A stretch of DNA of 36,668 bases from Deltaproteobacteria bacterium RBG_16_49_23 (GTDB lineage: Bacteria > Desulfobacterota > BSN033 > UBA1163): contig MGQQ01000073.1 in the NCBI GenBank assembly GCA_001798855.1, forward strand, positions 1-36,668, read 5' to 3'. Below the pieces are notes generated by a model. The model did not search any database and was not told the origin of the DNA. It saw only the letters and a list, made by a program, of their open reading frames with translations. The position numbers and the translations under genes were made by a program. Below, in pieces: positions 10,030-32,032 of this stretch; the stretch's first letter is position 1, and every line of letters starts with the position of its first letter.

Positions 10030-11148
10030 TCAAGGATGGGGAGAGAAAGGGTTGGCCATGCAAGCCATATCAAAACTTTGAGCCACTCCCCCGCAGACAA
10101 TATTTCCATCAAGGAGGTTAAGCCCCCTCCTCAATGCCTCGTTTCCTATCATCGCCTTCTCATAGCCGTGATCTGCAATCTGGAGGATATAGGAAAAGGT
10201 GGCATTCGTGAGGGCAAGGGTGGAGGTCCTTGGATAAATTCCGGGAATATTGGCCACACAATAATGAACCACTCTTTCTTCGATATAGGTGGGATGTTCA
10301 TGGGTGGTGGGCCTCGTCGTTTCGAAACAGCCGCCCTGATCAACCGATACATCCACGATCGCAGAGCCGGGCCGCATCCTCTTGAGCATCGGACGGGTTA
10401 CCAGTCTCGGCGCCTGGGCCCCCGGGATGAGAACCGCGCCGATCACCAGATCGGCATCCGAAATCTCCTCGCTGATCGTCATCCGGTTCGAGATCAAAGT
10501 GGTGATATGGCCCTGAGTAATATCATGAAGATAACCCAGTCTTTCAGGCCGGACATCGAGGATAGAAACCCTGGTTCCTAAGCCCACCGCCACCTTGCAG
10601 GCATTGGCCCCCACCACCCCTGCTCCGAGGATAACCACTTTGGCTGAAGGAACGCCTGAGGCGCCGCAGAGCAGAACCCCTCTCCCGCCATGCCTTGCCT
10701 CCAGACACATTCCGCCGGCAAGAATAGATGCCCTGCCCGCAATCTCGCTCATGGGACGAAGCAAAGGGAGCGAACCATCCTTCTCCTGCACGGTCTCATA
10801 CCCGATGCCGACAATCCGGGATTCCAATAATTTCTGGGTGAGCGCTCTGTTAGCCGCAAGGTGGAGATAGGTAAACAGGATCTGGCTCCTTCTCAGCCAA
10901 TCGAACTCCTCTTCGAGAGGCTCCTTCACCTTGACGACCATATCCGATTCCTTCCATACCTCCCCTGCGCTCCCGATGAGGATGGCTCCGGCCCTTTCAA
11001 ACTCCGTATCGGAGAAACCGCTCCCCTCCCCTGCGCCTTTCTCAACTAGAACCCTGTGATGATGGGAGGCCAGGGCATCCACGCCCTGGGGGGTCATTGC
11101 CACCCTCTTCTCTCCGGCCTTGATCTCTTTTGGAATGCCAATGATCAT
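10030..11148 (-). CDS. ald: Alanine dehydrogenase
   Basis: The enzyme interconverts L-alanine and pyruvate + NH3 with NAD. The N-terminus IIGIPKEIKAGEKRVAMTPQ is diagnostic of the AlaDH/PNT family (catalytic Lys and His follow). The Rossmann motif KVVILGAGVVGANACKVAVG lies near residue 170, and the downstream VTRPMLKRMRPGSAIVDVSV and DQGGCFETTRPTTHEHP complete the signature. Length (372 residues) is standard. The start is set at ATG 11148; a TTG two codons earlier is possible. It lies apart from the aminotransferase cluster, separated by repeats, and could regenerate alanine or pyruvate for aminotransferases, but no shared operator is seen. Confidence 0.93.
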   Translation of the reverse strand: MIIGIPKEIKAGEKRVAMTPQGVDALASHHHRVLVEKGAGEGSGFSDTEFERAGAILIGSAGEVWKESDMVVKVKEPLEEEFDWLRRSQILFTYLHLAANRALTQKLLESRIVGIGYETVQEKDGSLPLLRPMSEIAGRASILAGGMCLEARHGGRGVLLCGASGVPSAKVVILGAGVVGANACKVAVGLGTRVSILDVRPERLGYLHDITQGHITTLISNRMTISEEISDADLVIGAVLIPGAQAPRLVTRPMLKRMRPGSAIVDVSVDQGGCFETTRPTTHEHPTYIEERVVHYCVANIPGIYPRTSTLALTNATFSYILQIADHGYEKAMIGNEALRRGLNLLDGNIVCGGVAQSFDMACMANPFSPHP

Positions 11149-11159
11149 TATCAACCCGT

Positions 11160-11398: not shown

Positions 11399-12592
11399 TT
11401 ACCCGCACTTTGTGGCTAAGCGTTTTGCTACAAAATCGACCATCTCTCCCGTGGCTTTTGAAAACTCCTTTGCAGTGACCATCATGGCGGTATGAGAGAT
11501 AAACTCCTCAGGGGCCAATCCATCTTCTTGATAAGCCTTTTCGAAATAAGGAATTCGCAATAACCGGTCGAGGACAGCCCTGGGAACTTCCTCGTCGATC
11601 TGGGGTCTGAACTCCGTCCCGTCTAAATATTCAAAAACCCCCTCGATAAAAGAGGGAGGGCAGGTGAAGACGATATCCCCGCCTGCCAGCTTCTCTAAAT
11701 GCCAGCAGCGCTTCTTTCCATCCATCTCCGGGCTGATCCTCAACGAACAGATGAGCATCTTGCTCGGGTAACCCCTCTCCTTCAGAAGCCGATAGGCCTT
11801 TTTGAAGATGGCGATCTCAGCCCACCGGACATCCGCCTCGGAAAGGTTGATCTTCAGCGATTCTGCCTCGTTTCGAAGATCTCCGAGGTCGCCGTAGCGT
11901 GCGGTCATATGGGTGATCACGGACCTCCATCGCGTCAAATCAACCCCATTCTGTTTCGCTATCTCCAGCCCCTCCCTGACCGCCTTTGCGCAGGCCATCA
12001 ACTGAGGAAGGACAAAGGTCAGGGTATTATTCGTCGAGATTCCTCTTGAGGTCAGAAACCGGATGACCTCATACCCTTCCCTGCTTCCCGGAACCTTGAT
12101 CATCACATTGGGACTGAGGCTTGCCAGCTCCAGGGCCTGCGAGATCATCTTCTCCTTATCGGTAAGGACTCTCGGGTCCACCTGACCTGAAAGGTATCCA
12201 TACCGGTACTGGGATTGCTCAAAAACGCCTTGAAACATCTCTGCCCCTCTCCGGACAATCTCTTTATAGGTCATCCAGAAGAGGGCCTCTTTGTCGATGC
12301 AGGGATTCTGTTCAATCAGGCCATCAATGATCTCTGTCACATATGATTCCCGCGCCTTGATCACGCCGAGAGAGAGAGGAGGGTTGGTCGTGACTCCCCG
12401 GAAGAGCGTTTTCTCCGGATGTTCCGGATCATAGAGTCTCTTCAGTTGTTCCCGGACCTCTTCTGTCCGGCCGGGAGCGGCTTTCTTCAGAACTCCCTCC
12501 GCCCATGAAGCATAGATCAGAGGCGAAGAATCCCACCAGATCTCCAGCCCGGGATGGGTCTTCATCAACTTTTCAAAGGGGCTCTTCTTCAT
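11399..12592 (-). CDS. Transaldolase-family aldolase (divergent, FSA-like active site)
   Basis: A class I (Schiff-base) aldolase of the transaldolase family, 397 residues. Visible landmarks are D21 in IWWDSSPL, TTNPP (68-72), GQVDPRV (136-142), MIKVPGSREG (164-173; K166 the predicted Schiff-base lysine) and GISTNNTLTF (184-193). Classical transaldolases have Glu in the position before VD(P/A)R; here it is Gln137, the residue found in fructose-6-phosphate aldolases. I therefore infer an aldolase rather than transferase reaction on a dihydroxyacetone- or hydroxyacetone-like donor. It overlaps the aminotransferase by ATGA, so the two act in one pathway. It is too divergent and long at the C-terminus for ordinary TalA/B. 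Confidence 0.8.
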   Translation of the reverse strand: MKKSPFEKLMKTHPGLEIWWDSSPLIYASWAEGVLKKAAPGRTEEVREQLKRLYDPEHPEKTLFRGVTTNPPLSLGVIKARESYVTEIIDGLIEQNPCIDKEALFWMTYKEIVRRGAEMFQGVFEQSQYRYGYLSGQVDPRVLTDKEKMISQALELASLSPNVMIKVPGSREGYEVIRFLTSRGISTNNTLTFVLPQLMACAKAVREGLEIAKQNGVDLTRWRSVITHMTARYGDLGDLRNEAESLKINLSEADVRWAEIAIFKKAYRLLKERGYPSKMLICSLRISPEMDGKKRCWHLEKLAGGDIVFTCPPSFIEGVFEYLDGTEFRPQIDEEVPRAVLDRLLRIPYFEKAYQEDGLAPEEFISHTAMMVTAKEFSKATGEMVDFVAKRLATKCG

Positions 12593-13701
12593 ACTCGTTT
12601 CTCCTTCTCCCTCTTCTCAAAGAACTTTTTGATCGCCTGGACACAGAGAGAATTCTCCTCGTGTGTGCCAAGACTGATGCGGAAGAAGCCACTCCGTCCC
12701 CGGAAGGGAGCAAAGTATTTCAGCATGGCCCCTGCCCTCTCAAAAACATAATCGACCACATCCTTGCCTGTGACTCCGGCATCCGTGGCATCGATGAGCA
12801 CATAATTTCCGTGAGAATAGTAAGGTTTGACGCCCGGGATCTTCAGCAGTTCCTTGCACACATATGCGACGCCCGCATTGTTGTAAGCGGCCTTCCGCTT
12901 CAATTCCTCTTCCTCCTCGAGAGCGGCTTCTGCGGCAGCGATGGAGAGAAGGCTCGTATTCCAGGGCACCTGCATTTTGCGAAAGTAGCCGATCAGGGTC
13001 TCATCGGCCAGGGCATATCCGAATCGGATTCCCGCCATCCCGTAGGCTTTGGAGAAGGTGTGGGCGACGATGATATGATTATATTTTCGGATCAGAGGCG
13101 CCTTTGATTCGTGTTCGGGATGATATTCGAGATAGGCCTCATCGATCAGGGTGGGAATGCCGAGCTCCACGAGCTTCATCAGGTCCTCATCCGGAATAAA
13201 ATCTCCTGTAGGGTTATTGGGGGTGCAGACGATGATCAGTTTGGTGCGGGGCGTCACGGCGCGGAGCATCGCCGGGAGATCGTACCGGAGGTCAGGAGTC
13301 AGATCCACAGCCACCACGCTTCCTCCTACGGTTTTGGCCCGAATGCCATAAAGGGAGAAGGTGGGATTGGGAAGGAGCACCTCGTCTCCCGGAGTGACAA
13401 AGAGCCTCATGATCAGGTCGATGATCTCCGAGGAGCCATGACTGATATAGACGTTCTCCGGCCCGAGGTCGTACTGTTTGCCTATCTTTGTCCGGATGCG
13501 GGGCCCGCTGTCAGGATACCGGTTTCCCATTCTCGCTGCCTCCAGGATGGCCTGCACGACCTTCTCCGAAGGAGGGAGGGGATTTTCGTTGATCATCATC
13601 CGCTTGAGCTCCGGCCTGGACCAGGCCACCACCAGGTCCTCGGTATCATAGGGTTTGACCTGATCAATCCACGGCACCAAAAAACGTTTAAGATCAGCCA
13701 T
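12589..13701 (-). CDS. HisC-like class I/II aminotransferase (PLP)
   Basis: A fold-type I PLP enzyme resembling histidinol-phosphate aminotransferase. Landmarks are NENPLPPS near the N-terminus, SHGSSEIIDLI (cofactor loop), CTPNNPTG (159-166), IDEAYLEY (D187 pairs with the pyridine nitrogen) and TFSKAYGMAGIRFGYA (K218, Schiff base). The start at 13701 is preceded by AGGAGG; upstream in-frame codons are non-coding leader. No other his genes are in the window, its partner is a transaldolase-type aldolase, and its promoter carries the regulon operator, so a catabolic amino-phosphate or amino-phosphonate substrate is more likely than histidine synthesis. Threonine-phosphate-type or 2-aminoethylphosphonate-type substrates are possible, not shown. 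Confidence 0.85.
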   Translation of the reverse strand: MADLKRFLVPWIDQVKPYDTEDLVVAWSRPELKRMMINENPLPPSEKVVQAILEAARMGNRYPDSGPRIRTKIGKQYDLGPENVYISHGSSEIIDLIMRLFVTPGDEVLLPNPTFSLYGIRAKTVGGSVVAVDLTPDLRYDLPAMLRAVTPRTKLIIVCTPNNPTGDFIPDEDLMKLVELGIPTLIDEAYLEYHPEHESKAPLIRKYNHIIVAHTFSKAYGMAGIRFGYALADETLIGYFRKMQVPWNTSLLSIAAAEAALEEEEELKRKAAYNNAGVAYVCKELLKIPGVKPYYSHGNYVLIDATDAGVTGKDVVDYVFERAGAMLKYFAPFRGRSGFFRISLGTHEENSLCVQAIKKFFEKREKEKRV

Positions 13702-14084: not shown

Positions 14085-14846
14085 CTACTCTTTCAGATCG
14101 TACCGGTATCTCCCCGATTCCACCTCGAAGATATATTTATCCCCCCGGTGGAAGGCATGGAGGACCTCCACGGGAATGTTCTTTGAGTCGTAAATGACGC
14201 TTTCGAGAAAGATGCCCGGAGAGCGGGGAGGGACTCCCAACAACCTGGCATCCTCATTGGAGAAGAGCATGGCACGGAAGGTCTGGATCGACCGGTGGAG
14301 CGCCACATGGAACTTCCGGGTCAGGAGATGGTAGAGGGAACCGGTCAGTCGCATCTTTAAAATGGCTTTGTACTCCTTATAGGGAAGGTAGCTCCGCTCA
14401 ATGACGAGGGGGATGCGGTTTCCGAACCGGAGCCGCTCGGTGAGGATGACCAGTCTCTCCTTTCCCAGCATCAGCTTCTCCGCCACATCAGCGGGCGCTT
14501 CGACCACGGACTTGCTGATGAGCCTGTTCTGCGGGGAAACCCCCATGTGAATCATATCATCCGTAAAGCTGGAGATGTGCTGAAGGGTATATTTGACAGG
14601 CTGGACAGCCCGGCCGATGACAAAGGATCCCACGCCGTTCCTCTTCTGGACGATCCCTTTGGTCACCAGATCGGAGATGGCCTGACGGACCGTGTTCCGG
14701 TTGACCCGGAAAAGTTCCGCTAATTTCGACTCCGAAGGCAGTTTATCGTTCACCGCATACCGGCCCTTCTGGATCATCTCCATCAGCCAGTGGCTGATCT
14801 GCAAATACTTGGGAACTCCCGGATCAAGATGTAATGTCTCTGCCAT
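14085..14846 (-). CDS. GntR-family (HutC/UTRA type) transcriptional regulator
   Basis: The 253-residue protein has an N-terminal GntR winged helix (about 11-78; KLPSESKLAELFRVNRNTV, RQAISDLVTKGIVQKRNGVG) and a C-terminal UTRA effector domain (about 95-245), ending in EVLHAFHRGDKYIFEVESGR typical of HutC/PhnF-type regulators. HutC-type proteins bind palindromes of the form GTCTATAC, which matches the core of the operators found at four promoters here, so it is the natural candidate regulator of the whole locus (inference). The effector is probably the transported substrate or a phosphorylated product. ATG at 14846 is preceded by AGGAAAGAGAG. It lies downstream of the permease gene after 256 bp of repeat DNA. 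Confidence 0.88.
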   Translation of the reverse strand: MAETLHLDPGVPKYLQISHWLMEMIQKGRYAVNDKLPSESKLAELFRVNRNTVRQAISDLVTKGIVQKRNGVGSFVIGRAVQPVKYTLQHISSFTDDMIHMGVSPQNRLISKSVVEAPADVAEKLMLGKERLVILTERLRFGNRIPLVIERSYLPYKEYKAILKMRLTGSLYHLLTRKFHVALHRSIQTFRAMLFSNEDARLLGVPPRSPGIFLESVIYDSKNIPVEVLHAFHRGDKYIFEVESGRYRYDLKE

Positions 14847-15102: not shown

Positions 15103-16869
15103 TCACCTCGATGTGACCATTCCGGCCAACCCGGACCTGCCGGTCGCCAGGCGCATGACCAGGAGCGCTCCGATCACAATGGCCACCACAACCGTGCACA
15201 TCGCATTGGCGCTGGCCGTCCGGCCGTCCACATCCAGGAAGATGATTTCGATGGCCGCAAGTTTGATCGTTGCGGAGATGAGAAAGATCACCGCGCTGAT
15301 TGTTGTCATGGCCCTCATGAAGAAGAAGGTGGCGGTGGAGAGGAAGGCCACCCTCGACAGGGGAAAAATAACCTTCGTAAACGTGGAGACAGGCCCGGAG
15401 CCCAGGCTGACGGCCGCCTCTTCGATCGATTTGTCGATCTGTTTCAGATTGGCGATGCTGGTCAGCACCCCCAGGGTGAAATTGCAGATGACGATATTGA
15501 TGATGATGATCCAGATCGTCCCGTAGATAAAAAAGTAGGGCTTGTTAAAAGCCAGCACGTATCCCAGCCCCATCACCACCCCGGGGATGGCCGCCGGCAA
15601 AACACTCAGCGTATAGAGGATCTGCTCTCCCTTCGGCTTCTTCTTCTCGATGATATAGCCTGCGAGGAGGGTCAGGGAGGCGCCGGCAATGGCGACGACG
15701 ATGGCAACCAGAAGGCTGGTCCAGATGGGAGCATATTTGTAAGCGATCATCGTCCGAAACGCCCCCTCGGGCAGAGCCGAAATCCAGAAACTTGTCCAGA
15801 GAGGGGCATGAGCTCCCAGCGAAGGAAAGTCGAAATGTTTGAGGGTCAGTGAAAAATCGTAAGGCCAGGTCTTGACAAAAGACCCCAGGAAGACCGTCGC
15901 AAAAACGAGAAGGATACAGAGGCAGATCAATCCGCAATAAATCGTAAACCCCCATTTCTTAAGAGGCCGGGAGGGCTGCAGAAAAGGCCTTGCCTGACCG
16001 CTGATCAGGGCGTAACTCTTCCTCGTCAGATAATAGTTGAGGACAAAGGCTCCGATGGAGGGACCGAGGAGGATGACGCTGATCGTGGCTCCCAAATCGA
16101 AGCGTTGAAGCCCGAAGACCTGCGAGACAATCTCGGTCGCAAGCACTGAATAATTCCCGCCGATCACCACGGGGATGCCGAAATCGGTGATGGTGAGGTT
16201 GAAGGTCAGCGCGGCGGCGCTTGCAATTCCATACTTCGCCGAAGGGAGCGTCACCTTCCAGAAAGTCTTCAGGGCCGAGGCCCCCAGGCTTTGGGCCGCC
16301 TCATCCAACCGGGTGTCTACCGCGGAGAGAGTGGTGTAGAGAATGAAGAGGGCATTGGGAAAGCAGTAGAGGCATTCCCCGACGATGATCCCTGTGGCTC
16401 CATAGATGTTCCAGTTTGTGCCCAGGAGATAACGGGTGATCAAACCGTTTCTGCCGAAGAGGAGGATGAGAGCCAGGGCTTGAATGATCGTCGGAGCGAT
16501 GAGAGGAAAGGTCGAAATGGAATAGAAGACCCCCTTGCCCGGCATCGTCGTCCGGGTCAATCCATAGGCAAAGAAAAAGGCGGTCACCGTGGTGATGATC
16601 ATCGTGAGGAGGGAAATATAGATGCTGTTGGTAAACGACCTGAAGATCCTCGGACTCGAAAAATAGGCCACATAGTTTTCGAAGGTAAGGGCCCCTTCTT
16701 TTAAAAAACTGAGCCGGCAGATATCTACCACCGGATAGAGAAGAAAAAAAACAAGAACGGCCAGGAAGAACGCAGAGGCCACTCCTGTGATAAATCTGTC
16801 CGGGCTGAAGGCAAGCGATGAAAAGAAGGATGAAACGGGGTGCGAACGATCCATCTCAGGTCGGTTCAT
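15103..16869 (-). CDS. ABC transporter permease, duplicated (PhnU2/AepW-like, 2-aminoethylphosphonate type)
   Basis: A 588-residue inner-membrane protein made of two fused permease halves, each with about six membrane segments. Each half has an EAA-type loop for ATPase contact: DEAAQSLGASALKTFWKVTL in the first and EEAAVSLGSGPVSTFTKVIF in the second. This double-permease architecture belongs to the iron(III)/2-aminoethylphosphonate importer group, including the PhnU2 family. It overlaps the ATPase gene by ATGA and completes an importer with the substrate-binding protein at 19009. Family membership is confident; the phosphonate substrate is inferred mainly from the binding protein and context, with ferric iron or another anion as the alternative. 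Confidence 0.85.
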   Translation of the reverse strand: MNRPEMDRSHPVSSFFSSLAFSPDRFITGVASAFFLAVLVFFLLYPVVDICRLSFLKEGALTFENYVAYFSSPRIFRSFTNSIYISLLTMIITTVTAFFFAYGLTRTTMPGKGVFYSISTFPLIAPTIIQALALILLFGRNGLITRYLLGTNWNIYGATGIIVGECLYCFPNALFILYTTLSAVDTRLDEAAQSLGASALKTFWKVTLPSAKYGIASAAALTFNLTITDFGIPVVIGGNYSVLATEIVSQVFGLQRFDLGATISVILLGPSIGAFVLNYYLTRKSYALISGQARPFLQPSRPLKKWGFTIYCGLICLCILLVFATVFLGSFVKTWPYDFSLTLKHFDFPSLGAHAPLWTSFWISALPEGAFRTMIAYKYAPIWTSLLVAIVVAIAGASLTLLAGYIIEKKKPKGEQILYTLSVLPAAIPGVVMGLGYVLAFNKPYFFIYGTIWIIIINIVICNFTLGVLTSIANLKQIDKSIEEAAVSLGSGPVSTFTKVIFPLSRVAFLSTATFFFMRAMTTISAVIFLISATIKLAAIEIIFLDVDGRTASANAMCTVVVAIVIGALLVMRLATGRSGLAGMVTSR

Positions 16870-17948
16870 GCCGCACCTTCTTCCGGATAGACGAGAAAAC
16901 TTTCCGGAGGGAAATAGAGGAGGATCTCATCGCCCTGTTTGAATCCCCTCTGCTCAAACGCCTTCTCGATCACATCCGAGATCACTTCCTCTCCATCGAT
17001 ATTGACGACCAATCGAACCGCCGCTCCCAGAAAGGTGACCACATCGATTCTCCCGGGGATCAGGTTGGAGAGGACCAGATGGTGTGTCGGCTCTCCGGGT
17101 CTGAAGACCTCGATCTTCTCCGGTCGGATGGCGAGGACCACTTTCTCACGAAAGGACGAGCCTGTTTGAGCAACCGCAAATTCCCATTGTTCGGTCTGGA
17201 CGCGATCCTCTGTGCGCAAGCCCTTAAAAAAGTTGGAGGTCCCCACAAAATCCGCAACAAAATCGGAGTTCGGGCACTTATAAATGTCGATGGGCTTCCC
17301 CACCTGCCGGAACTGCCCTTTCTCCATCACGACCACTCGATCGGCAATCGAAAGCGCTTCCTCCTGATCATGGGTGACATAGATCATTGTCTTCTTCAAT
17401 TCCTGTTGCAATCGTTTGATCTCCGCCCGTAGACGAACCCTGATCTTGGCATCGAGTGCGCTCAAGGGTTCATCCAAAAGCAGGACCTGGGGATTGGGCG
17501 CCAAAGCCCGAACCAGGGCGATTCTCTGCTGCTGGCCTCCGCTTAACTGGGCCGGGAAGAGCCTTCTCCAGTCCCGAAGCCCGACGAGGTCCAGCATCTG
17601 ATCGACCCTCTGGGCGATGGCCTGTTTATTCACCTTTCTCATCTTCAGGCCGAAGGCGATATTCTCCTCCACCGTCATATTCGGAAAGAGAGCATAAGAT
17701 TGAAAAACGATTCCGAATTCCCTCTTCTTGGGGATGAGATGATTGATCGCCTTTCCATCGAAGAAGATCTTTCCCTCTGTAACAGTCTCAAAACCGGTGA
17801 TCATCCTGAGGACGGTGGTCTTCCCGCAGCCGCTCGGCCCGAGGAAACAGATAAATTCACCCTCTTCGATCTCCAGATTGACCTGGTCCACGGCAGTCAG
17901 CGTTCCGTAGCGCTTGGTGAGATTCTCCAGTCTGAGGTTTCTGCTCAT
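16866..17948 (-). CDS. ABC transporter ATPase (PhnT2/AepV-like)
   Basis: A 360-residue importer ATPase. Walker A GPSGCGKT (37-44), Q-loop in VFQSYALFP, signature LSGGQQQR (135-142), Walker B LLLDEP (156-161) and the switch histidine in YVTHDQEEAL are all present. A C-terminal TOBE-like domain (about 245-355) follows, as in the CUT1/iron(III)/aminoethylphosphonate ATPases. ATG at 17948 follows GGCAGGATG. It heads the ATPase-permease operon, whose promoter and operator B lie some 390 bases upstream, leaving a long leader of repeats. Confidence 0.9.
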   Translation of the reverse strand: MSRNLRLENLTKRYGTLTAVDQVNLEIEEGEFICFLGPSGCGKTTVLRMITGFETVTEGKIFFDGKAINHLIPKKREFGIVFQSYALFPNMTVEENIAFGLKMRKVNKQAIAQRVDQMLDLVGLRDWRRLFPAQLSGGQQQRIALVRALAPNPQVLLLDEPLSALDAKIRVRLRAEIKRLQQELKKTMIYVTHDQEEALSIADRVVVMEKGQFRQVGKPIDIYKCPNSDFVADFVGTSNFFKGLRTEDRVQTEQWEFAVAQTGSSFREKVVLAIRPEKIEVFRPGEPTHHLVLSNLIPGRIDVVTFLGAAVRLVVNIDGEEVISDVIEKAFEQRGFKQGDEILLYFPPESFLVYPEEGAA

Positions 17949-19008: not shown

Positions 19009-20019
19009 TCATTTCATGAAGAGGGTCTCCCATTTTTTCAGGATCTCATCCCGGTTCTTTGCCTGCCAGGCAAAGTCCATGGGATAAAGTTTAATCTCAG
19101 ATAATTTGGGCAGGTCAGGGCGTGTTGGAATGCCGGGTAGGGTCACTCCATATTTAAATTTGGAATATTCCTTCATTGCGCCTTCGCTGATGGCCCAATC
19201 CAGGAATTTCTTGGCTGCTCCCGCATTCTTTGCTCCTTTAAGGAGGGCATTGGCCTCCACCTCGTAGCCCGCCCCTTCGATCGGGAAAACGAATTCAACC
19301 GGGAATCCCTGTTTTTTCTGTTCTGCAACCACAAAGTCGAAAGAAGCGCCCACCGCAAACTCTCCGGATGCCGTCATCTTGGCAGGCCTTGATCCGCTCT
19401 TGATATATTGGCCCATATTTTTATCCAGTTTTTTCAAAAATTCCCAGCCGTCCTCCTTCCCTTCTTTGGCCCCATACATCTGGAGGATGCTTGAAATCTG
19501 CAGAAACCCCGTTCCCGAGGCAGCTGGATTTGGCATGGCGATCAACCCTTTAAATTTCGGATCGAGCAGGTCGTTCCACCCCTTGGGCATCGGGAGTCCT
19601 TTTTCCTTCATGACCTTGGTGTTGACACAGAAGGCGGCAATATACATATCGATGCCGACATAACTAAATCCGGGATGGACGAATTTCTTGTCTAATTTCT
19701 CAACCCCCTTCGGCTTATAGGGTTCCACCATTCCTTTTGTGACGAAGTCTTCCAAATTGGTCACGGCCCATCCCCAGATGAGATCGGCCTGGGGGTTGGC
19801 CCTCTCCGCCAACATTCTGGCGCCGAGTTCTCCTGTGGAAAGCCGGATGATATGGATTTCAAGATCCGGAAGATCCTTGAGATAGGCTTCCCGGTACTTA
19901 TCAATTTCATCCGTCTCTAACGAGGTATAGACCACCACTTTGTCCTTGGCCAACGCGCTTCCTGAAAGAAAGGCCACCATTAAAAAACCGACTATCAATG
20001 CCCACCATTTTCTCTTCAT
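19009..20019 (-). CDS. ABC transporter substrate-binding protein (AepX/PhnS2-like, 2-aminoethylphosphonate type)
   Basis: A periplasmic binding protein of 336 residues. The signal peptide is MKRKWWALIVGFLMVAFLSG plus SALA, with cleavage expected before KDKVVVYTSLETDE. The sequence resembles the putative 2-aminoethylphosphonate binding proteins (PhnS2/AepX) and the wider iron(III)-binding FbpA group: LERANPQADL-like ERANPQADLIWGWA, then KGWNDLLDPKFKGLIAMPNP and ASGTGFLQISSIL, a conserved anion-binding region. ATG at 20019 is preceded by AAGGAGG; an earlier in-frame start would put a charged stretch before the signal peptide. It has its own terminator. Ligand identity is inferred from family resemblance, not shown. 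Confidence 0.85.
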   Translation of the reverse strand: MKRKWWALIVGFLMVAFLSGSALAKDKVVVYTSLETDEIDKYREAYLKDLPDLEIHIIRLSTGELGARMLAERANPQADLIWGWAVTNLEDFVTKGMVEPYKPKGVEKLDKKFVHPGFSYVGIDMYIAAFCVNTKVMKEKGLPMPKGWNDLLDPKFKGLIAMPNPAASGTGFLQISSILQMYGAKEGKEDGWEFLKKLDKNMGQYIKSGSRPAKMTASGEFAVGASFDFVVAEQKKQGFPVEFVFPIEGAGYEVEANALLKGAKNAGAAKKFLDWAISEGAMKEYSKFKYGVTLPGIPTRPDLPKLSEIKLYPMDFAWQAKNRDEILKKWETLFMK

Positions 20020-20049
20020 ACGCTTAACCTCCTTCTTTATTTGCATCAT

Positions 20050-20648: not shown

Positions 20649-23066
20649 ATGAAAGATCAGGCTCGGGTGGTCATTATTGGAGGCGGTATTACAGGATGCA
20701 GCATAGCATACCACCTTACTCAAATGGGATGCGAGGATGTGATTGTTATTGATAAAGGGGAGCTCACCAGTGGCGCCACCTTCCATGCCGCAGGCCTGGT
20801 CGGCCAACTCCGGGCATCCGTCAACATCACCAGGATGTTGAAATACAGCGTTGAGCTTTACTCGCGCCTGGAAGAAGAGACAGGACAACATACGGCATGG
20901 AGTGCCGTTGGGGGCCTCCGGATCGCCTTGTCAAAAGATCGCATGGAGGAGTTGCGTCGCTCCGCCGCTATGGCCAAAACCTTCGGATTGCCCATGGAGC
21001 TGATCAGTCCGAAAGAGGCATGGGACCTCTTCCCAGTGATGGAGAAGAAAGGCATTGTTGGAGCCGCTTTTCTCCCTACGGATGGCCAGATCGACCCCAG
21101 TGGCGTCACGTATGCCCTTGCTCAAGGAGCCCGGAATAGAGGGGCGACAATCTATACCGATACCCGTGTCACAGGGATCAAGCTGAAGAATGGAGCCGTT
21201 GAGGAAGTCTTAACAGAAAAGGGAAATATAAAAACGGAAATCGTAGTGAACGCCGCTGGAATCTGGGCGCCCAAGATAGGAGAAATGGTAGGCGTCGCTA
21301 TTCCTCTCATCCCCATGGAGCACCAATATATCATCACCAAGCCCATCAAGGGGGTAAAGAAAGGAATGCCCACGATGCGGGACCCCGACCTTCTTGTCTA
21401 TTTCCGCGAGGAGGTGGGCGGACTTATGATGGGAGGCTATGAACATAATCCGATTCCCTGGGCGCTTGACGGAATTCCGCGAGACTTCACCAAAACACTG
21501 CTAAAATCCAACTATGAACATTTCGAACCTCTCTCTGTTCTGGCAATGAAGAGAGTCCCTTCCATTGGCAACGCTGAAATTGTCACCCTCCTCAATGGCC
21601 CCGAGGCTTTCACTTCGGATGGGGATTTCATCATGGGCGAGGCCGCAGAGGTGAAAAACTTCTTCATTGCGGCAGGTTTCTGCGCCCATGGAATTGCTGC
21701 CGCAGGAGGAGTGGGCAAAATGATGGCCGAGTGGATCATCGAGGGAGAACCCAGCCTTGACCTGTGGCGTCTCGATATTCGGCGTCTCGGAGCACATCAT
21801 AGAAGTCAGCCCTATACCATCAAAAGAGCGACCGAAGTCTATGCCCATCACTATTCCATGAGCTGGCCCTATGAAGAAATGGCTTCGGCAAGACCTCTTC
21901 GAACAAGCCCCCTTTACTCCCTTTTAAAAAAGAGGGGCGCGGTCTTCGGAGAGAAATATGGCTGGGAACGGCCAAACTGGTTTGCCCCAAAAGGGGTGGC
22001 GCCGAAAGATAAGTTGACATGGGGGCTCCCAAACTGGTTCGAGTATGTTGCAAAAGAACATGAAGCCGTGAGGACAAAGGCAGCCCTGATTGACCAGACC
22101 TCGTTCGGAAAGATCGAGATCAAGGGGAAAGGGTCATTATCGCTTCTTCAAAAAATGACCGACAATCAGATGGACAAGCCCATCGGCTCAACCACCTATA
22201 CCCAAATGCTGAACGAAAAAGGAGGAATTGAGTGTGATCTCACGGTGACCCGGTTAGCTGAAGAACAGTTCTATCTGGTAACAGGAACAGCATTTATTAA
22301 ACACGATCTGAGCTGGATCCGGAAACATCTTCCCACGGATGGCTCTATCTCGGTCGCGGATGTCACCTCTTCTAATGCCTGCATCACCCTTTGCGGCCCT
22401 GAATCCCGTAATATCCTCAACCGGCTGATCGGAGAGGATCTCTCCAATCAGGGATTCCCCTATATGGCCTGCAAGGAGATTACCCTGGGGTGCGCTCCTG
22501 CCCTTGCCCTCCGTATCACCTATGTGGGTGAACTCGGATATGAACTCCATATACCCATCGAATATGCTCTTTATGTATATGAAGCCCTGTGGGAGGCAGG
22601 AAACCCTTTCGGCTTAATCAATGCAGGTTACCGTTGCGTCGATTCCCTCCGACTGGAGAAAGGATACAGATACTGGAGTGGAGATATCTCTCCTGAATAT
22701 ACCCCTTTTGAAGCAGGCCTCGATTTCTGCGTGCGGTTAGATAAGGGAGATTTTATCGGCCGCAAAGTTTTATTAACTCAGAAAGAAAAAGGCTTAACCA
22801 GAAAGCTCTGCTGTCTGACCGTCGATTCAGGCCCATTGATGCCCGTGGGTAAGGAGGCCATCCTCGAAGGAGATAAAGTGGTTGGCATTGTCACCAGCGG
22901 AGGATATGGACATACAATTAAGAAACCCATAGCTTATGGATATCTGCCCATCGATTATTCAAAACCCGGAATCCGGTTGCAAATCGAAGTGGCTGCCAAA
23001 CGGTACGAAGCCACCGTCGAAAAAGAACCGCTCTACGACCCGGAAAATCTGAAGGTAAGAGGTTAA
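20649..23066 (+). CDS. FAD-dependent dimethylglycine/sarcosine dehydrogenase-like enzyme with GcvT domains
   Basis: The 805-residue protein has an N-terminal DAO-type FAD domain: GGGITG (11-16), then LTSGATFHAAGLVGQ with His46 at the position covalently flavinylated in dimethylglycine dehydrogenase. A FAO-type linker domain (about 370-430) precedes a folate-binding GcvT domain and C-terminal barrel (about 440-805; YTQMLNEKGGIECDLTVTR, GELGYELHIP). Such enzymes oxidise N-methyl amines and pass the one-carbon unit to tetrahydrofolate. ATG at 20649 follows GAGGAGATG. Operator C puts it in the importer regulon, suggesting that the imported compound, or a derivative, is N-methylated. The true substrate could be another secondary amine. 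Confidence 0.87.
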   Translation: MKDQARVVIIGGGITGCSIAYHLTQMGCEDVIVIDKGELTSGATFHAAGLVGQLRASVNITRMLKYSVELYSRLEEETGQHTAWSAVGGLRIALSKDRMEELRRSAAMAKTFGLPMELISPKEAWDLFPVMEKKGIVGAAFLPTDGQIDPSGVTYALAQGARNRGATIYTDTRVTGIKLKNGAVEEVLTEKGNIKTEIVVNAAGIWAPKIGEMVGVAIPLIPMEHQYIITKPIKGVKKGMPTMRDPDLLVYFREEVGGLMMGGYEHNPIPWALDGIPRDFTKTLLKSNYEHFEPLSVLAMKRVPSIGNAEIVTLLNGPEAFTSDGDFIMGEAAEVKNFFIAAGFCAHGIAAAGGVGKMMAEWIIEGEPSLDLWRLDIRRLGAHHRSQPYTIKRATEVYAHHYSMSWPYEEMASARPLRTSPLYSLLKKRGAVFGEKYGWERPNWFAPKGVAPKDKLTWGLPNWFEYVAKEHEAVRTKAALIDQTSFGKIEIKGKGSLSLLQKMTDNQMDKPIGSTTYTQMLNEKGGIECDLTVTRLAEEQFYLVTGTAFIKHDLSWIRKHLPTDGSISVADVTSSNACITLCGPESRNILNRLIGEDLSNQGFPYMACKEITLGCAPALALRITYVGELGYELHIPIEYALYVYEALWEAGNPFGLINAGYRCVDSLRLEKGYRYWSGDISPEYTPFEAGLDFCVRLDKGDFIGRKVLLTQKEKGLTRKLCCLTVDSGPLMPVGKEAILEGDKVVGIVTSGGYGHTIKKPIAYGYLPIDYSKPGIRLQIEVAAKRYEATVEKEPLYDPENLKVRG

Positions 23067-23123: not shown

Positions 23124-23879
23124 TTAGTAAAATTTCAGTTCCCGGATCGATTTGACGACGAGGTCTGCCACCTTTTCCAATTCCTCCCTTGGAGTTACCC
23201 CTCCCTCGAGAATCCCGATGGTCAGCGCCACGCCGGCGCTCTTTCCCATCGTCATGTCCGTTATTGAATCTCCCACCATCACAGCCTCTTGGGGAGGGAC
23301 AGAGAGCTTCCGGCAAATAGTAAGAATGGTTTCGGGGTGAGGTTTGGCCGGGGTTACTTCTCCTGAACAGAGGATTAAATCAAATAATTTATCCATGCCA
23401 AGATGATGGAGAATGGCTTCCGTGTCTTTTCGCTCGTCATTCGTTGCCAGAGCCGTATAGAACCCGCTCCCTTTCAGATGGGAGAGGAAAGACTGAACGC
23501 CTTTGATTGGGACAACATTCTGTCGCCAATCACCATCTGAGTCAGCCTCGTCAAAAGCCTGGGCTACCCACTGCTTCGATTCATCCCAATGATATCCATT
23601 CTGGTAAAGCGCCATCGTGCCGATGATGATCTCATCGGACCGGGGTGAGACAGGACAGGGCCCTCTCGGATCGACTTTTCCGCTAACAGGATCGATTCCC
23701 CAGGATCTCAAAAGGAAGGCCTCCAATTCTCCATTCTTCCCCAATCGTTTTAAAAGGAAGGAAACCCGCTTTCGAATCAAAGGGACCCATGTTGCTGAAA
23801 AGTCGATCAGTGTTCCGTCCTTGTCAAAGATGATCAAACGGCAGGGGATGCGTTTCCCTTGATATTCAATCCCTGTCAT
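23124..23879 (-). CDS. HAD-superfamily hydrolase (phosphoglycolate phosphatase-like)
   Basis: A 251-residue HAD phosphatase. Motif I FDKDGTLID (nucleophile Asp), motif II ALATND, motif III lysine in AKPHPETI and motif IV MVGDSITDMTMG are all intact. The large cap (about 35-105) resembles subfamily IA phosphoglycolate phosphatases. It would hydrolyse a small phosphate ester in the cytoplasm. In this setting it may remove phosphate from an intermediate of the pathway, or act on phosphonoacetaldehyde-like compounds, but the catalytic Lys signature of true phosphonatase (PhnX) is not recognisable. ATG at 23879 follows GGAGG. It converges on the FAD gene; no operator copy is seen upstream. Confidence 0.85.
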   Translation of the reverse strand: MTGIEYQGKRIPCRLIIFDKDGTLIDFSATWVPLIRKRVSFLLKRLGKNGELEAFLLRSWGIDPVSGKVDPRGPCPVSPRSDEIIIGTMALYQNGYHWDESKQWVAQAFDEADSDGDWRQNVVPIKGVQSFLSHLKGSGFYTALATNDERKDTEAILHHLGMDKLFDLILCSGEVTPAKPHPETILTICRKLSVPPQEAVMVGDSITDMTMGKSAGVALTIGILEGGVTPREELEKVADLVVKSIRELKFY

Positions 23880-23959: not shown

Positions 23960-24115
23960 TAATAGTTTCGTCACCTGCTGCCTGTCGCAGGCAGACATAA
24001 ACCGGTAAAATACGCCCCTCACCCTAACCCTCTCCCGCCCGGGGAGAGGGAGATTATTTAAGGAGCCTTTTTGATAACCCCTCCCCCTTTGACGGGGGAG
24101 GGTGAGGGTGGGGGT
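23960..24115. repeat. Intergenic repeats before the transketolase-like gene
   Basis: TGCCTG-TCG-CAGGCA (about 23980), a CTCACCCTAACCCTCTCCC / GGGGAGAGGG palindrome (24018-24050) and CCCCTCCCCCTTTGACGG / GGGAGGGTGAGGGTGGGG (24078-24113). No regulon operator is found in this interval. Confidence 0.6.
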
Positions 24116-24146
24116 GAAAAGGATTAACAATATTATGGAGGTGAAA

Positions 24147-26078
24147 ATGGACGGAAAAAGATTTGGGGCTGAAAGACTCGACGAATCTACTCTTTTAAGA
24201 TTGACCGAACTCTCAAAACTGGCGAGAGGCGATATCTTGAAGATGACGACTCTGGCCGGCTCCGGACATCCCGGAGGATCGATGTCATCCATTGACTTCT
24301 ATCTTGTCCTCTACTCCTTTGCCAATGTTTCCCCCCGGTCTCCTCATGATCCAAACCGGGACAGGATTGTGATCAGCCATGGCCACACTTCTCCCGGTGT
24401 TTACGCCGCTCTGGGCAGAATCGGTTTTTTTCCGATCGATGCGGCCATTGCCAATTTCAGAAAGGCAGGGTCTGCCTTTGAGGGACACGTGGAGAAAGGA
24501 GTGCCGGGAGTCGAATGGAACACCGGCAACTTAGGACAGGGCCTTTCAGCCGGATGCGGGTTCGCTCTCGCAGGGAAGTTATTGAAAAGGGAATCCCGTG
24601 TTTTTGTCACAATGGGCTGCGGGGAACAGCAGAAAGGACAGATTTCAGAGGCCAGGAGATTTGCAATCAAATATGATCTCAATAATCTGACTGTCATCAT
24701 CGACTACAATTGCAGACAGATTAGCGGAGTGACCCAGGAGATCATGCCGCAGAATATTATCAAAAATTTTGAATCGGATGGATGGCATGTCCTTGAGGTG
24801 AATGGCCACGAATTTCAGGAGATCTATGGAGCCCTTCGCAAGGCTGCCCTCTCCCCGCATCCCACCATGATCCTTGCCCACACCATCATGGGAAAAGGAG
24901 TCTCTTTTATGGAAGGGAAAGAGGAGTTTCACGGAAGGGGCCTTAATCTCGAAGAGTATAAAAAGGCCGTTCTGGAATTGGGCGTCGAAGAGAATCTGGA
25001 CAGTTATCGCCAGATGCGTCAAAAAAGTGAATCTCCCTACTCACCCCCAAAATATCCGGTTGAGATCCCTTCTGTTCAAACAGGAAATCCAAGAACGTAT
25101 GAAAAGGACCAGAAGCTGGATAACCGGTCCGCCTTTGGAAATGCCCTGGTTGATCTTGGCAAAGCCAACCTAAGGAACGACGGCTCTCTTCCGATCGCTG
25201 TCTTTGATTGTGATTTGGCTCCTTCAACGAAGACCACGGCCTTCGCCAGGCAATTTCCAGACTATTTTTTCCAGGGCGGAATCCAGGAGCATAACACGGC
25301 AACGATCGCAGGAGCCGTTTCGACCGTCAACCTCCTTTCCTTCTTTGCCGATTTCGGAGTGTTCGGGATCGATGAGACTTATAATCAGCACCGTCTGAAT
25401 GATATCAATGGAACCAACCTCAAACTCATCTGCACCCACGTAGGCCTGGATGTCGGGGAGGATGGAAATACTCACCAATGCATCGACTATGTCGGTGTGA
25501 TCCGAAACCTCTTCGGATATAAAGTCATCATTCCTGCAGATCCGAATCAGACTGATCGTGTGATTCGATATGTGGCCAGGACCCCGGGGAATTTTCTTGT
25601 GGCCATGGGACGCTCCCCGATCCCGATCATTCTCTCCGAAGAGGGGAGCCCTTACTTCGGTGCTTCTTATGAGTTTCGATATGGTCAGGCCGACCTTCTC
25701 CGGAAGGGGAAGGATGCGACCGTCATCACCGCCGGAGGCATGGTCTATCGGGCCATCCGGGCCTGGGAGATATTGAAGGAAAAAGGGATTGAAGTTCAGA
25801 TACTGAATCTCTCATGCTTCAGTGATCTCGATACCGAAGCCATCATGAGATCCGCCAGGACAGGGACGATCATTACCTATGAAGATCATCATGTCCAAAC
25901 CGGCCTGGGAAGTCTTGTCGGGAATGTTCTGGCAGAGCATGGCTTGCCCATTCGTTTCCGGAAGATGGGGATCACCCGGTATGGCAGCTCCGGGAAACCC
26001 GACGACCTCTACCGTATGCAGGAGCTCGATGTGGATAGCCTTGTGAAAACAGTGATGGATGAGGTTAATGGAATATAA
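24147..26078 (+). CDS. Transketolase-like enzyme with altered ThDP motif
   Basis: A 643-residue single-chain transketolase homologue. From the chosen start, SGHPGG (39-44), HGH (78-80), the pyrimidine-binding region with QEHN (380-383; E381 as activating Glu) and GEDGNTHQ (437-444) are recognisable. The ThDP/Mg motif, normally GDGE, reads GCGE at 157-160, Cys for the metal-ligand Asp, while the later Asn in DYNCRQ (186-191) is kept. The ATG at 24147 follows GGAGGTGA; the longer frame to 24102 starts inside a palindromic repeat. It could transfer a two-carbon unit in the pathway served by the transaldolase-type enzyme. The motif change leaves actual activity uncertain. Confidence 0.82.
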   Translation: MDGKRFGAERLDESTLLRLTELSKLARGDILKMTTLAGSGHPGGSMSSIDFYLVLYSFANVSPRSPHDPNRDRIVISHGHTSPGVYAALGRIGFFPIDAAIANFRKAGSAFEGHVEKGVPGVEWNTGNLGQGLSAGCGFALAGKLLKRESRVFVTMGCGEQQKGQISEARRFAIKYDLNNLTVIIDYNCRQISGVTQEIMPQNIIKNFESDGWHVLEVNGHEFQEIYGALRKAALSPHPTMILAHTIMGKGVSFMEGKEEFHGRGLNLEEYKKAVLELGVEENLDSYRQMRQKSESPYSPPKYPVEIPSVQTGNPRTYEKDQKLDNRSAFGNALVDLGKANLRNDGSLPIAVFDCDLAPSTKTTAFARQFPDYFFQGGIQEHNTATIAGAVSTVNLLSFFADFGVFGIDETYNQHRLNDINGTNLKLICTHVGLDVGEDGNTHQCIDYVGVIRNLFGYKVIIPADPNQTDRVIRYVARTPGNFLVAMGRSPIPIILSEEGSPYFGASYEFRYGQADLLRKGKDATVITAGGMVYRAIRAWEILKEKGIEVQILNLSCFSDLDTEAIMRSARTGTIITYEDHHVQTGLGSLVGNVLAEHGLPIRFRKMGITRYGSSGKPDDLYRMQELDVDSLVKTVMDEVNGI

Positions 26079-26170: not shown

Positions 26171-27205
26171 ATGGTGCCCATGATGGATCTTCTCATCTTC
26201 GATATGGATGGTGTCCTCATCGATGTTTCGCGGTCCTATCGCAAGACCATTCAGCAGACCATTCATATCTATCTCCAGGACTGCTTGGGGATGAAGTCAA
26301 CTTTAGTATCCTCTGAGGAGATCTCTCTCTTTAAATCGGTAGGGGGGTTCAATAACGATTGGGATCTGACCGCGGGGTTCCTTCTCTATCTTCTCTCCGT
26401 TTCAAAAATCCCTCCCCTTCCAAAGCAGAAGAAACTTTCTTCTCTTGATGAAATTGTACTTTATCTCCGGCAACATTTATCCAATTTTTATCAGAGAAGG
26501 CCCCTTGGCCTCAAAAGGAATCTCTTCTCCTCATTCTTAGAACAGGTCAAAGCCTCGGGAGGAGGATTGAGGGGGGTTCGGTCTGTTCTTGGAGGCTCGT
26601 GGGCTAATTGGATATATCGGTCCGGAGACCTCGAAAAAGAGAACCTCGTAAAAAGGATCTTCCAGGAGATTTATTTGGGCGAGAAGTTTTCGCCTCACTA
26701 TCATCTTCAGCCTCTCTTTTATAGGGGAAAGGGGTTATACCTCAGGGAAAAGCTTTTGATTGAAAGAGAAATCCTTGCGTCCCTTCGGAAAAAGGTGAGA
26801 TTGGGGATTGCCAGCGGCCGTCCAAGATTCGAAGCGGAACTGGCCCTGAAGCGGTTCCGGATCCTTCACTATTTCGATAGTGTGGTCACCCTCGATGAAT
26901 GCGAAACAGAAGAGGCTAGCCTTCTTAAGGTTTCAAAAAAAGAGATGAAACTCACCAAACCCCACCCCTTTTCCATTCTTAAGGTCATCGAAGAAATAGG
27001 CATTCCCAATCCCCGATGCGGATATATTGGTGATGTAGTGGACGATATGAAGGCTGCACAAGCCGCAAAAAAAAAATTCCCCATGCTGGCGATCGGCTTT
27101 CTCCGATCAGGAAAAACAGAACCCGTGATGATGGAAGCGTTGCTCCGAGCCGGGGCAGACTGCATCATTAAAAACCCGAAGGAGTTACTCCAGCTTGCCG
27201 GCTGA
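26171..27205 (+). CDS. HAD-superfamily subfamily IA hydrolase with large cap
   Basis: The 344-residue protein opens MVPMMDLLIFDMDGVLIDVS: motif I DMDGVL with the nucleophile Asp. Motif II is IASGRP, motif III a lysine in KLTKPHPFSIL, and motif IV GYIGDVVDDMKAA. A cap of about 190 residues separates motifs I and II, longer than usual. The opening DVSRSYRKTIQQT resembles the small HAD clade known in cyanobacteria and archaea (as I recall, TIGR01548), in which some members are joined to histidine-pathway genes. A HisC-like aminotransferase is encoded in this locus, which makes that link notable. The start may be 26171, 26180 or 26183. It lies 92 bp after the transketolase-like gene, probably in one transcript. 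Confidence 0.78.
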   Translation: MVPMMDLLIFDMDGVLIDVSRSYRKTIQQTIHIYLQDCLGMKSTLVSSEEISLFKSVGGFNNDWDLTAGFLLYLLSVSKIPPLPKQKKLSSLDEIVLYLRQHLSNFYQRRPLGLKRNLFSSFLEQVKASGGGLRGVRSVLGGSWANWIYRSGDLEKENLVKRIFQEIYLGEKFSPHYHLQPLFYRGKGLYLREKLLIEREILASLRKKVRLGIASGRPRFEAELALKRFRILHYFDSVVTLDECETEEASLLKVSKKEMKLTKPHPFSILKVIEEIGIPNPRCGYIGDVVDDMKAAQAAKKKFPMLAIGFLRSGKTEPVMMEALLRAGADCIIKNPKELLQLAG

Positions 27206-27278: not shown

Positions 27279-28310
27279 ATGCTCATCGAAGGCTTGATTC
27301 TTTTACTCGCCATCTTCGTCGTCGGGTTGGCCCTCTTCTTTGATTACTCCAACGGCTTCCACGATGCGGCCAATGTAGTGGCGACCATTATCGCCACGGG
27401 AGCCATGAGCCCTCGAAGCGCTCTGGGCCTTGCCGCCATTGCCCATTTCGTAGGCCCTTTCCTCTTCGGCACGGCAGTGGCTCAAACCATCGGAAAAGGG
27501 ATTGTTGATATCTCCGCTTTTGATCCAAGCCAAACCGGGCTCTCCGTCTCTCTGGTCATTGCTGCCCTGATTGGCGCCATCGCCTGGAATCTCATCACCT
27601 GGGCATGGGGGCTCCCGTCCAGCTCGTCCCATGCCCTGGTAGGCGGAATGATTGGCGCAGTTTTAATCGCTTACGGATCTGATAAGGTCCTCTGGAAGGG
27701 GCTTCTCTATGTGATCTCGTTTCTGATTCTCACCCCTGTGCTGAGTTTGATCTTCGGCAACCTCGTTCTGAAGGTTACTTTCCGTCTCTCAAGGAAGGCG
27801 CCGCCCCAGATCTCCCATTTTTTCAACCGGGTGCAGATCCTCTCCTCCGTGGCCCTCTCCCTTAGCCATGGGGCCAATGATGCCCAAAAAACCATGGGCA
27901 TTATCACCATGTCCCTGGTCATCCTCGGTGTCTTTCCGGATTTTCATATTCCGTTCTGGGTGGTTGCCAGTTGTGCGACCGCGATCGCGCTTGGGACGGC
28001 AAGCGGAGGATGGCGAATCATTAAGACCCTGGGCTCGAAGATCTACCGTCTGAGGTCGGTTCACGCCTTTTGCGCCCAGACCGCTTCTGCCACGGTTATC
28101 CTCGGTGCGGCGCTCCTCGGAGGGCCTGTTTCAACGACCCATGTTGTTTCCTCCAGCATCATGGGCGTGGGGGCGGGGCAGAGGGTCTCCGCTGTCCGGT
28201 GGGGGGTTGCAAAGAATATCATCCTGGCCTGGTTCATCACCATCCCTGCCTCTGCCATAATGGCAGGGCTCAGTTTCCTTCTGATACGGATGGCCCATCC
28301 AAATTTTTAA
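27279..28310 (+). CDS. pit: PiT-family inorganic phosphate transporter
   Basis: A 343-residue inner-membrane protein with about ten membrane segments. The duplicated PiT signatures are visible as DYSNGFHDAANVVATIIATG (23-42) and SHGANDAQKTMGI in the second half, plus SSSHALVGGMIGA and STTHVVSSSIMGVGAG. These transporters move metal-phosphate or phosphate with protons or sodium. Its promoter carries operator D, so it is controlled together with the importer and enzymes; a role in taking up or exporting phosphate released by the pathway is inferred. The ribosome site GGAGG is only one base from the ATG at 27279, so a TTG at 27294 is an alternative start. Confidence 0.93.
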   Translation: MLIEGLILLLAIFVVGLALFFDYSNGFHDAANVVATIIATGAMSPRSALGLAAIAHFVGPFLFGTAVAQTIGKGIVDISAFDPSQTGLSVSLVIAALIGAIAWNLITWAWGLPSSSSHALVGGMIGAVLIAYGSDKVLWKGLLYVISFLILTPVLSLIFGNLVLKVTFRLSRKAPPQISHFFNRVQILSSVALSLSHGANDAQKTMGIITMSLVILGVFPDFHIPFWVVASCATAIALGTASGGWRIIKTLGSKIYRLRSVHAFCAQTASATVILGAALLGGPVSTTHVVSSSIMGVGAGQRVSAVRWGVAKNIILAWFITIPASAIMAGLSFLLIRMAHPNF

Positions 28311-28315
28311 AGTAA

Positions 28316-28510
28316 ACCCCGTTAGAAATTCCAGCGGGGCTTTAAAACCCGCCGGAATTATTTTATAATTCAACCCCGGTGCAGCCTCCGGCCCAGGCTC
28401 CGCCCCAGAGGGGCTTCTGCCCCGGAGGGAGGGCTTCTCTCCGAGCCAGGAGGCTCTCTGAGCCGGTGGCTGGCCCGAAGGGAACAGCGGCCCATTATTT
28501 CTAACGGGGT
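28316..28510. mobile_element. MITE-like element with 14-bp terminal inverted repeats
   Basis: ACCCCGTTAGAAAT (28316-28329) and ATTTCTAACGGGGT (28497-28510) are exact inverted copies bounding 195 bp. The interior holds GC-rich hairpins (CCTCCGGCCCAGGCTCCG, CCCCAGAGGGGCTTCTGCCC, GGCTTCTCTCCGAGCC) and no ORF. It sits between pit and the DUF47 gene, which are normally adjacent, so it is probably an insertion within that operon. Confidence 0.7.
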
Positions 28511-28524
28511 AAAGGAGCAAAATC

Positions 28525-29154
28525 ATGGTATTCGATTTCCTCAGAAGAAAGAAGTCCTTTTCAGGCAGTGAGAATCGTTTCTTCGATCTGCTCTCCCGTC
28601 AATCCTTAAAGAGCATCGAGGGGCTGGACGCCCTCTGGAACTTCGCTGAAAACGGGAGCATGGAGAATGCCAATCTCGTCCGGAATATTGAACGGGAAGC
28701 GGATGAGCTGAGACGGATTTTGATCCAGGAGTTGGATCAGACTTTTATCACGCCCATAGACCGGGAGGATATCTTTGACCTCTCCCGTGCTATTGACGAT
28801 GTGGTGGACTATGCGAATACGACCGTGGATGAAATGGAGATTTATGAGGTTAAGGGAGACCATCATATCAAAGAGATGGTCAACATCCTCCGTAAGGCCA
28901 CCCGGGAATTATATGATGCGGTCAAAATCCTGAAAGATTATCCCAAAATCGCCTCAGAGCATGCGGTCAAAACCAAAGCGTATGAAAACCAAATAGAAAA
29001 GGCCTATCACATGGCGTTGGCTGACCTCTTTAAAGGAACAGACACAGTCTATATGCTGAAGATGCGGGAGATCTACCGCCACCTCAGCAATGCGGCCGAC
29101 CGGGGAGATGAAGCCGCCAACATCATCTCCAGCATCGTCATGAAACACACTTAA
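28525..29154 (+). CDS. DUF47 family PhoU-like PiT accessory protein
   Basis: The 209-residue protein is all helical and begins MVFDFLRRKKSFSGSENRFF, with FITPIDREDIFDLSRAIDD and DYANTTVDEM, the conserved metal-coordinating signature of the DUF47/TIGR00153 group. Such proteins are encoded next to PiT transporters and are thought to regulate or partner them. Here it follows pit, interrupted by the 195-bp element. ATG at 28525 is preceded by AAAGGAGCAAAATC. It would act at the cytoplasmic face of the membrane. Confidence 0.92.
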   Translation: MVFDFLRRKKSFSGSENRFFDLLSRQSLKSIEGLDALWNFAENGSMENANLVRNIEREADELRRILIQELDQTFITPIDREDIFDLSRAIDDVVDYANTTVDEMEIYEVKGDHHIKEMVNILRKATRELYDAVKILKDYPKIASEHAVKTKAYENQIEKAYHMALADLFKGTDTVYMLKMREIYRHLSNAADRGDEAANIISSIVMKHT

Positions 29155-31875: not shown

Positions 31876-32032
31876 GGGAGTACAACTTACTTCAATCGTC
31901 GAATTTGCCTGGTTTCTTTTTTCCTGGATTCCTGGCTTCCTTATTTCGGGGAGTGCAACCTGCTTCAGTCGTCGAATGTGCCTGGCTTCTTTTTTCCTGG
32001 ATTCCTGGCTTCCTTATTCAGTCGTCGAATTT
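31876..32032. repeat. 73-bp imperfect tandem repeat between miaB and the aldolase gene
   Basis: A unit beginning GGGAGT(A/G)CAAC and ending GGATTCCTGGCTTCCTTATT occurs at 31876-31948 and 31949-32018, with a third partial copy of its CAGTCGTCGAATTT core at about 32019-32032. It runs into the last codons of the aldolase gene. Confidence 0.75.

Follow-up and report, generated by a model that had tools for sequence, protein, structure and literature searches.

Which reaction does a transaldolase-family enzyme serve when glutamine stands at its acid-base position? A gene in the window, as we call the whole 36,668-nucleotide stretch of deltaproteobacterial DNA analysed here, raises this question, and an earlier note on the sequence had predicted an aldolase that uses a free donor such as dihydroxyacetone instead of a transferase. 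The argument below draws on the protein, its homologues and the following genes of the window.

10030..11154, minus strand: alanine dehydrogenase (490 bits against the TIGR00518 cut-off of 391.85)
11399..12592, minus strand: transaldolase-family enzyme, 397 aa, ATG start (ORF call and PF00923 match)
12589..13701, minus strand: HisC-like aminotransferase, class I/II PLP enzyme (start read at 13701; longest ORF to 13791)
14085..14846, minus strand: GntR/UTRA regulator, PhnF-like, below curated cut-offs
15103..16869, minus strand: ABC permease, fused double domain, PhnU2-like
16866..17948, minus strand: ABC ATPase, PhnT2-like
19009..20049, minus strand: periplasmic binding protein, AfuA/P5PA/PhnS2-type
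20649..23066, plus strand: dimethylglycine-dehydrogenase-like (DMGDH-like) protein, FAD oxidoreductase and GcvT domains
23124..23879, minus strand: HAD-family phosphatase (part of the operon in loci L077, L080 and L082)
24102..26078, plus strand: transketolase
26171..27205, plus strand: HAD-family protein (HAD2), which comes after the transketolase in locus L058

Family placement and active site

We found that the 397-residue protein matches PF00923 (TAL_FSA) in a profile search with E=6.2e-30 and a score of 105 bits (cut-off 27). Its AlphaFold model is a TIM-barrel with a pLDDT of 95.6, and the closest PDB matches of the model in Foldseek are all transaldolases, with 3r5e on top (about 21% identity in the structural alignment). 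Profile score, fold and the Schiff-base lysine Lys166 place the protein in the transaldolase/fructose-6-phosphate aldolase (TAL/FSA) superfamily. Against the NCBIfam equivalog and subfamily models of both types, the protein stays below every cut-off: the curated TAL models give 96.9 bits against 367, 70.7 against 233.75 and 34.4 against 396.2, and the FSA equivalog TIGR00875 gives 44.5 against 245.95. Sequence and model together set the protein apart as a subfamily of its own among class I aldolases with the transaldolase fold. As judged from its sequence, the protein is not simply an FSA, whose subunit has about 220 residues, and its size and family-model scores suit neither known subfamily.

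Residues were matched by sequence and profile alignment together with motif spacing (F-x-x-R, Y-x-x-R and M-x-x-R). The earlier note had read GQVDPRV as the equivalent of the EVD(P/A)R segment, with Gln137 at the acid-base position and Lys166 retained, and all of this held: the segment reads SGQVDPRV, the numbering of both residues is correct, and TalB Glu96 and FsaA Gln59 both align on Gln137. In the profile alignment, TalB 'RISTEVDARLSYD' (Glu96) falls on 'YLSGQVDPRVLTD' of the transaldolase-like protein, the FsaA segment 'RLFAQV' (Gln59) falls on the same glutamine, and TalB Lys132 aligns on Lys166. The minus-strand codons lie at 12182-12184 (Gln137), 12095-12097 (Lys166) and 11906-11908 (Met229).

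Homologues were gathered by peptide patterns around WWDSS and FRGVTTNP. Since these patterns exclude the glutamine motif, invariance of the glutamine is not built into the sampling. All 83 homologues have Asn70, Gln137, Asp139, Pro140, Arg141, Lys166, Asn188, Thr190, Thr227, Met229 and Arg232, and the 82 that cover the position of Asp21 all have this residue; Ser283 is present in 82 of 82 covering homologues and Arg285 in 73 of 83. Where transaldolase (EC 2.2.1.2) has its acid-base glutamate, every one of the 83 sequences has glutamine, which rules out a misread or a one-off mutation.

The position of TalB Phe178 and FSA Tyr131 is taken by Met229, which is like neither, and the spacing M-x-x-R232 equals F178-x-x-R181 of TalB and Y131-x-x-R134 of FSA. 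Thr227 provides a TAL-like hydroxyl at the position of TalB Ser176 and FSA Ala129. The TalB phosphate site of Arg181, Ser226 and Arg228 corresponds to Arg232, Ser283 and Arg285, and thus the TAL-like pair of arginines with a serine is present. In TalB, mutants and a sulphate bound in the site showed that these residues hold phosphate (PMC3962226), and since they are kept here, a phosphorylated substrate is expected. In FSA, according to PMC13259622, the catalytic water is held by Gln59, Thr109 and Tyr131; two of these three water-organising residues are present in our protein, and the third is the invariant methionine.

The mycobacterial/corynebacterial-type transaldolases (TIGR00876, PRK03343; PDB 3r5e) share the fold, the catalytic lysine, the SxxVDPR segment and the phosphate-site arginine with this protein, which nonetheless has Gln for Glu and Met for Phe and scores far below their curated cut-offs. 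FsaA (TIGR00875; PDB 1l6w) shares the acid-base glutamine and the active-site lysine and threonine, whereas the protein studied here lacks Tyr131, has Thr for Ala129 and Arg for Lys168, is 397 instead of 220 residues long and occurs in another genomic setting. With respect to the engineered TalB variants E96Q and E96Q/F178Y (PDB 4rz5, 4rz6, 9qpk), the Gln137 enzyme is the natural equivalent of E96Q; it differs in having Met at position 178, neither Phe nor Tyr, and in being natural, invariant and part of a dedicated operon.

The free-donor aldolase of the earlier note would be a functional analogue of fructose-6-phosphate aldolase: it would either cleave fructose-6-phosphate or attach a free ketone, dihydroxyacetone or another, to an aldehyde phosphate. 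The invariant glutamine fits this proposal, as do the deposited TalB variants and the statement in PMC13259622, there credited to Stellmacher 2015, that FSA and TalB activities can be turned into one another by exchanging the residues that organise the water. Met229 for Tyr131, Thr227 for Ala129, the length and the low FSA model score argue against it. We detected no Dak1 dihydroxyacetone kinase in the window's genome, and Dak1 was present in only one of the 23 genomes searched; its absence from the other 22 weakens the case for a free-dihydroxyacetone aldolase, although other enzymes could use dihydroxyacetone. In addition, the operon offers no obvious source of free dihydroxyacetone, and transketolase, which uses xylulose-5-phosphate, is a recurrent neighbour. 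The glutamine on which the prediction was built thus stands, while the predicted function gains partial support only, and we regard the free donor as unlikely, if worth weighing.

A conserved gene neighbourhood

The operon around the gene, which the earlier note did not consider, is the more telling part of the evidence. On the minus strand, the gene order of the window runs from the binding protein through the ABC ATPase, fused permease, GntR/UTRA regulator, aminotransferase and transaldolase-like protein to the alanine dehydrogenase, and the aminotransferase gene overlaps the transaldolase-like gene by 4 bp. Upstream of this operon, mostly on the opposite strand, lie the DMGDH-like, HAD, transketolase and second HAD genes. 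The DMGDH and transketolase genes of the window are on the strand opposite to the transaldolase-like gene; in locus L058 (78% identity), aminotransferase, transaldolase-like (TAL), alanine dehydrogenase (AlaDH), DMGDH, transketolase and HAD2 genes stand in line on a single strand. Downstream of transketolase and HAD2, at 27279-29154, are a PHO4-type phosphate permease gene and a PhoU-like gene, a pair that might handle phosphate freed from an organophosphate substrate. Further along the window, at 32014-34364, a class II aldolase-family gene adjoins a fructose-1,6-bisphosphatase gene.

We next considered neighbours within 8 kb in 80 loci from Desulfobacterota, Thermoleophilia, Chloroflexi and some Rhodobacterales. 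By tblastn, an aminotransferase gene (AT) lies near the transaldolase-like gene in 52 of the 80, in Desulfobacterota, Thermoleophilia and Chloroflexi, and on the same strand in 52 of 52; ORF clustering gives 46, since antisense ORFs in GC-rich loci mask genes. The other neighbours are GntR regulators (33 loci), AlaDH (29), transketolase (21, from divergent lineages), DMGDH (19), the binding protein (16), electron-transfer flavoprotein (ETF; 8-9), choline/ethanolamine-kinase-like proteins (7) and MtmB-like proteins (3), counts that are not independent events since the loci are related by descent. Gene order is variable and includes AT-TAL, TAL-AT, TAL-AlaDH-AT and TAL-FBA-AT. The last of these occurs in Chloroflexi, where a class II fructose-bisphosphate-aldolase-like gene stands between the other two (L124:11267-12142, L125:11305-12180, L126:11228-12142) and could help supply hexose phosphate.

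Among 57 genomes of near relatives, 18 have both TAL and AT, 37 have neither, two have TAL only and none has AT only. This co-occurrence is confounded by relatedness, yet within one genus the genomes G012-G014 and G015-G016 differ in both genes together. The remaining 28 of the 80 loci have no aminotransferase nearby, and some of them, among them L061, L070, L093, L115 and L127, adjoin FGGY sugar kinases, a DHDPS-family gene or dehydrogenase-complex genes. The aminotransferase-free loci may represent a second functional setting, and the reaction of the family is not necessarily tied to amino alcohols. Class-level relatives (L026, L027 and L028) contain ORFs of 887-953 aa with a transaldolase-like region, possibly of the bifunctional transaldolase/phosphoglucose isomerase type.

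Clues to the substrate

The operon aminotransferase passes the TIGR01141 (HisC) cut-off at 284 bits against 276.55, and a second HisC of the same genome scores 347 bits. Given this better-scoring HisC elsewhere, the adjacent aminotransferase is unlikely to be the histidine-pathway enzyme. The operon aminotransferases form their own clade (48 of 48, support 0.93), separate from the genome's better-scoring HisC. They keep the PLP residues and, in 48 of 48, the equivalent of HisC Arg335, which we take to be phosphate-binding; Tyr20, presumably an active-site residue of HisC, is lost in the aligned operon proteins and kept in the genome's own HisC. The substrate of HisC bears CH(NH2)-CH2-OPO3, which is also the motif of phosphoethanolamine. 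The alanine dehydrogenase in the operon suggests that pyruvate is the amino acceptor.

By similarity, the binding protein stands nearest to AfuA, which binds hexose phosphates, and to P5PA, which binds pyridoxal phosphate. It keeps the phosphate-site residues of both, while the AfuA sugar contacts His205, Asp206, Tyr103 and Gly59 are replaced by Phe, Val, Asp and Trp in nearly all operon binding proteins. A kept phosphate site with replaced sugar contacts suits a ligand with a phosphate and a cationic amine. Kinase-like ORFs occur in seven loci, L072 (two), L090, L091, L099, L100, L124 and L126; the PDB matches of the two proteins examined are choline/ethanolamine kinases only, and among NCBIfam models the ORFs match a guanitoxin-pathway kinase best, with a score under the cut-off. 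L072 also encodes an OpuAC-type (choline/betaine-type) binding protein.

The closest PDB entries of the DMGDH-like protein are dimethylglycine dehydrogenase and oxidase, ETF genes lie alongside it in several loci, and the protein is likely an N-demethylase. Other loci contain genes for an MtmB-like and a corrinoid protein, a putative alternative system for N-demethylation. Full-length MtmB-like genes without an in-frame stop adjoin a corrinoid protein gene at L077:6346-7836, L080:3789-5246 and L082:3605-5047; these are possibly non-pyrrolysine relatives of MtmB (monomethylamine methyltransferase) acting on an N-methylated amine. Taken together, the binding protein, kinases, demethylation genes, aminotransferase and alanine dehydrogenase suggest that the substrate is a small, positively charged amine bearing a phosphate ester, the simplest such compound being phosphoethanolamine.

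We asked whether the operon might instead degrade 2-aminoethylphosphonate or N-methylated aminophosphonates, with the aminotransferase making phosphonoacetaldehyde. 2-Aminoethylphosphonate is the annotated substrate of the importer family, the importer genes are closest to putative transporter models for this compound, the regulator is PhnF-like and one HAD protein is weakly PhnX-like. However, the importer, PhnF-like and PhnX-like matches are all below curated cut-offs, the recurrent choline/ethanolamine-kinase-like genes make no sense for a phosphonate, and an aldolase step on phosphonoacetaldehyde would lead to a dead-end sugar phosphonate. We consider a phosphonate substrate improbable. 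A normal transaldolase of the pentose-phosphate pathway with a chance glutamine would match the fold, the phosphate site and the nearby transketolase. This reading is very improbable: the same genome encodes, elsewhere, two ordinary transaldolases of small size that have Glu and Phe (L001, L002), the TAL equivalog models all miss their cut-offs, and the gene is tightly linked to an aminotransferase operon.

A proposed route to pentose phosphates

Our data suggest that the operon serves the catabolism of amino-alcohol phosphates, with (N-methyl-)phosphoethanolamine or phosphocholine as the most likely substrate, a reading from sequence and gene context to which we give a probability of about 0.5. 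In this route, the amino-alcohol phosphate would enter through an AfuA/PhnS2-type ABC importer or arise in the cell by the action of a choline/ethanolamine kinase. Its N-methyl groups would be stripped off by the DMGDH-like/ETF enzymes in some loci and by the MtmB-like corrinoid system in others. The HisC-like aminotransferase would then transfer the amino group of phosphoethanolamine to pyruvate; glycolaldehyde phosphate would result, and the alanine formed alongside would be returned to pyruvate by alanine dehydrogenase. A dihydroxyacetone unit, most likely from fructose-6-phosphate (sedoheptulose-7-phosphate and free dihydroxyacetone being further candidates), would be bound to Lys166 as a Schiff base, and the Gln137/Lys166 enzyme would join this unit to glycolaldehyde phosphate. 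Since TAL and FSA share (3S,4R) stereochemistry, the predicted product is D-xylulose-5-phosphate, the standard donor of transketolase. Transketolase and the normal pentose-phosphate enzymes would turn it into triose and hexose phosphates with carbon conserved, and by a hand calculation the net stoichiometry would be 3 glycolaldehyde phosphate to 2 triose phosphate and Pi.

Some known systems come close to parts of this route. Modules for taurine or 2-aminoethylphosphonate transamination pair a pyruvate-linked aminotransferase with alanine dehydrogenase. The logic is common, with pyruvate accepting the amino group and alanine dehydrogenase recycling it, whereas here the aminotransferase is HisC-like and would be followed by a transaldolase and a transketolase, not by Xsc or PhnX. 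Ethanolamine-phosphate phospholyase (ETNPPL), for which our literature search brought up a study of astrocytes, would share the substrate phosphoethanolamine. ETNPPL eliminates the phosphate to give acetaldehyde, in contrast to the proposed route, which would keep the phosphate on the two-carbon aldehyde and build it into a pentose.

In the open-access literature (PMC), we found no description of this route from phosphoethanolamine, phosphocholine, 2-aminoethylphosphonate or glycolaldehyde phosphate, and a catabolism in which glycolaldehyde phosphate is a central intermediate would, to our knowledge, be new. We therefore propose, as a tentative claim that we hold to be quite possible though short of probable, an undescribed catabolic pathway in Desulfobacterota, Actinomycetota and Chloroflexi that leads from phosphoethanolamine, phosphocholine and their N-methylated relatives to pentose phosphates through transamination and carbon-conserving capture by a Gln/Met transaldolase subfamily. 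If this is true, the very substitution by which transaldolase was engineered into an aldolase would exist in nature, in an enzyme whose physiological setting reveals the reaction it serves. Anaerobic and soil bacteria would also have a way to use a two-carbon phosphate derived from phospholipid head groups with its carbon conserved.
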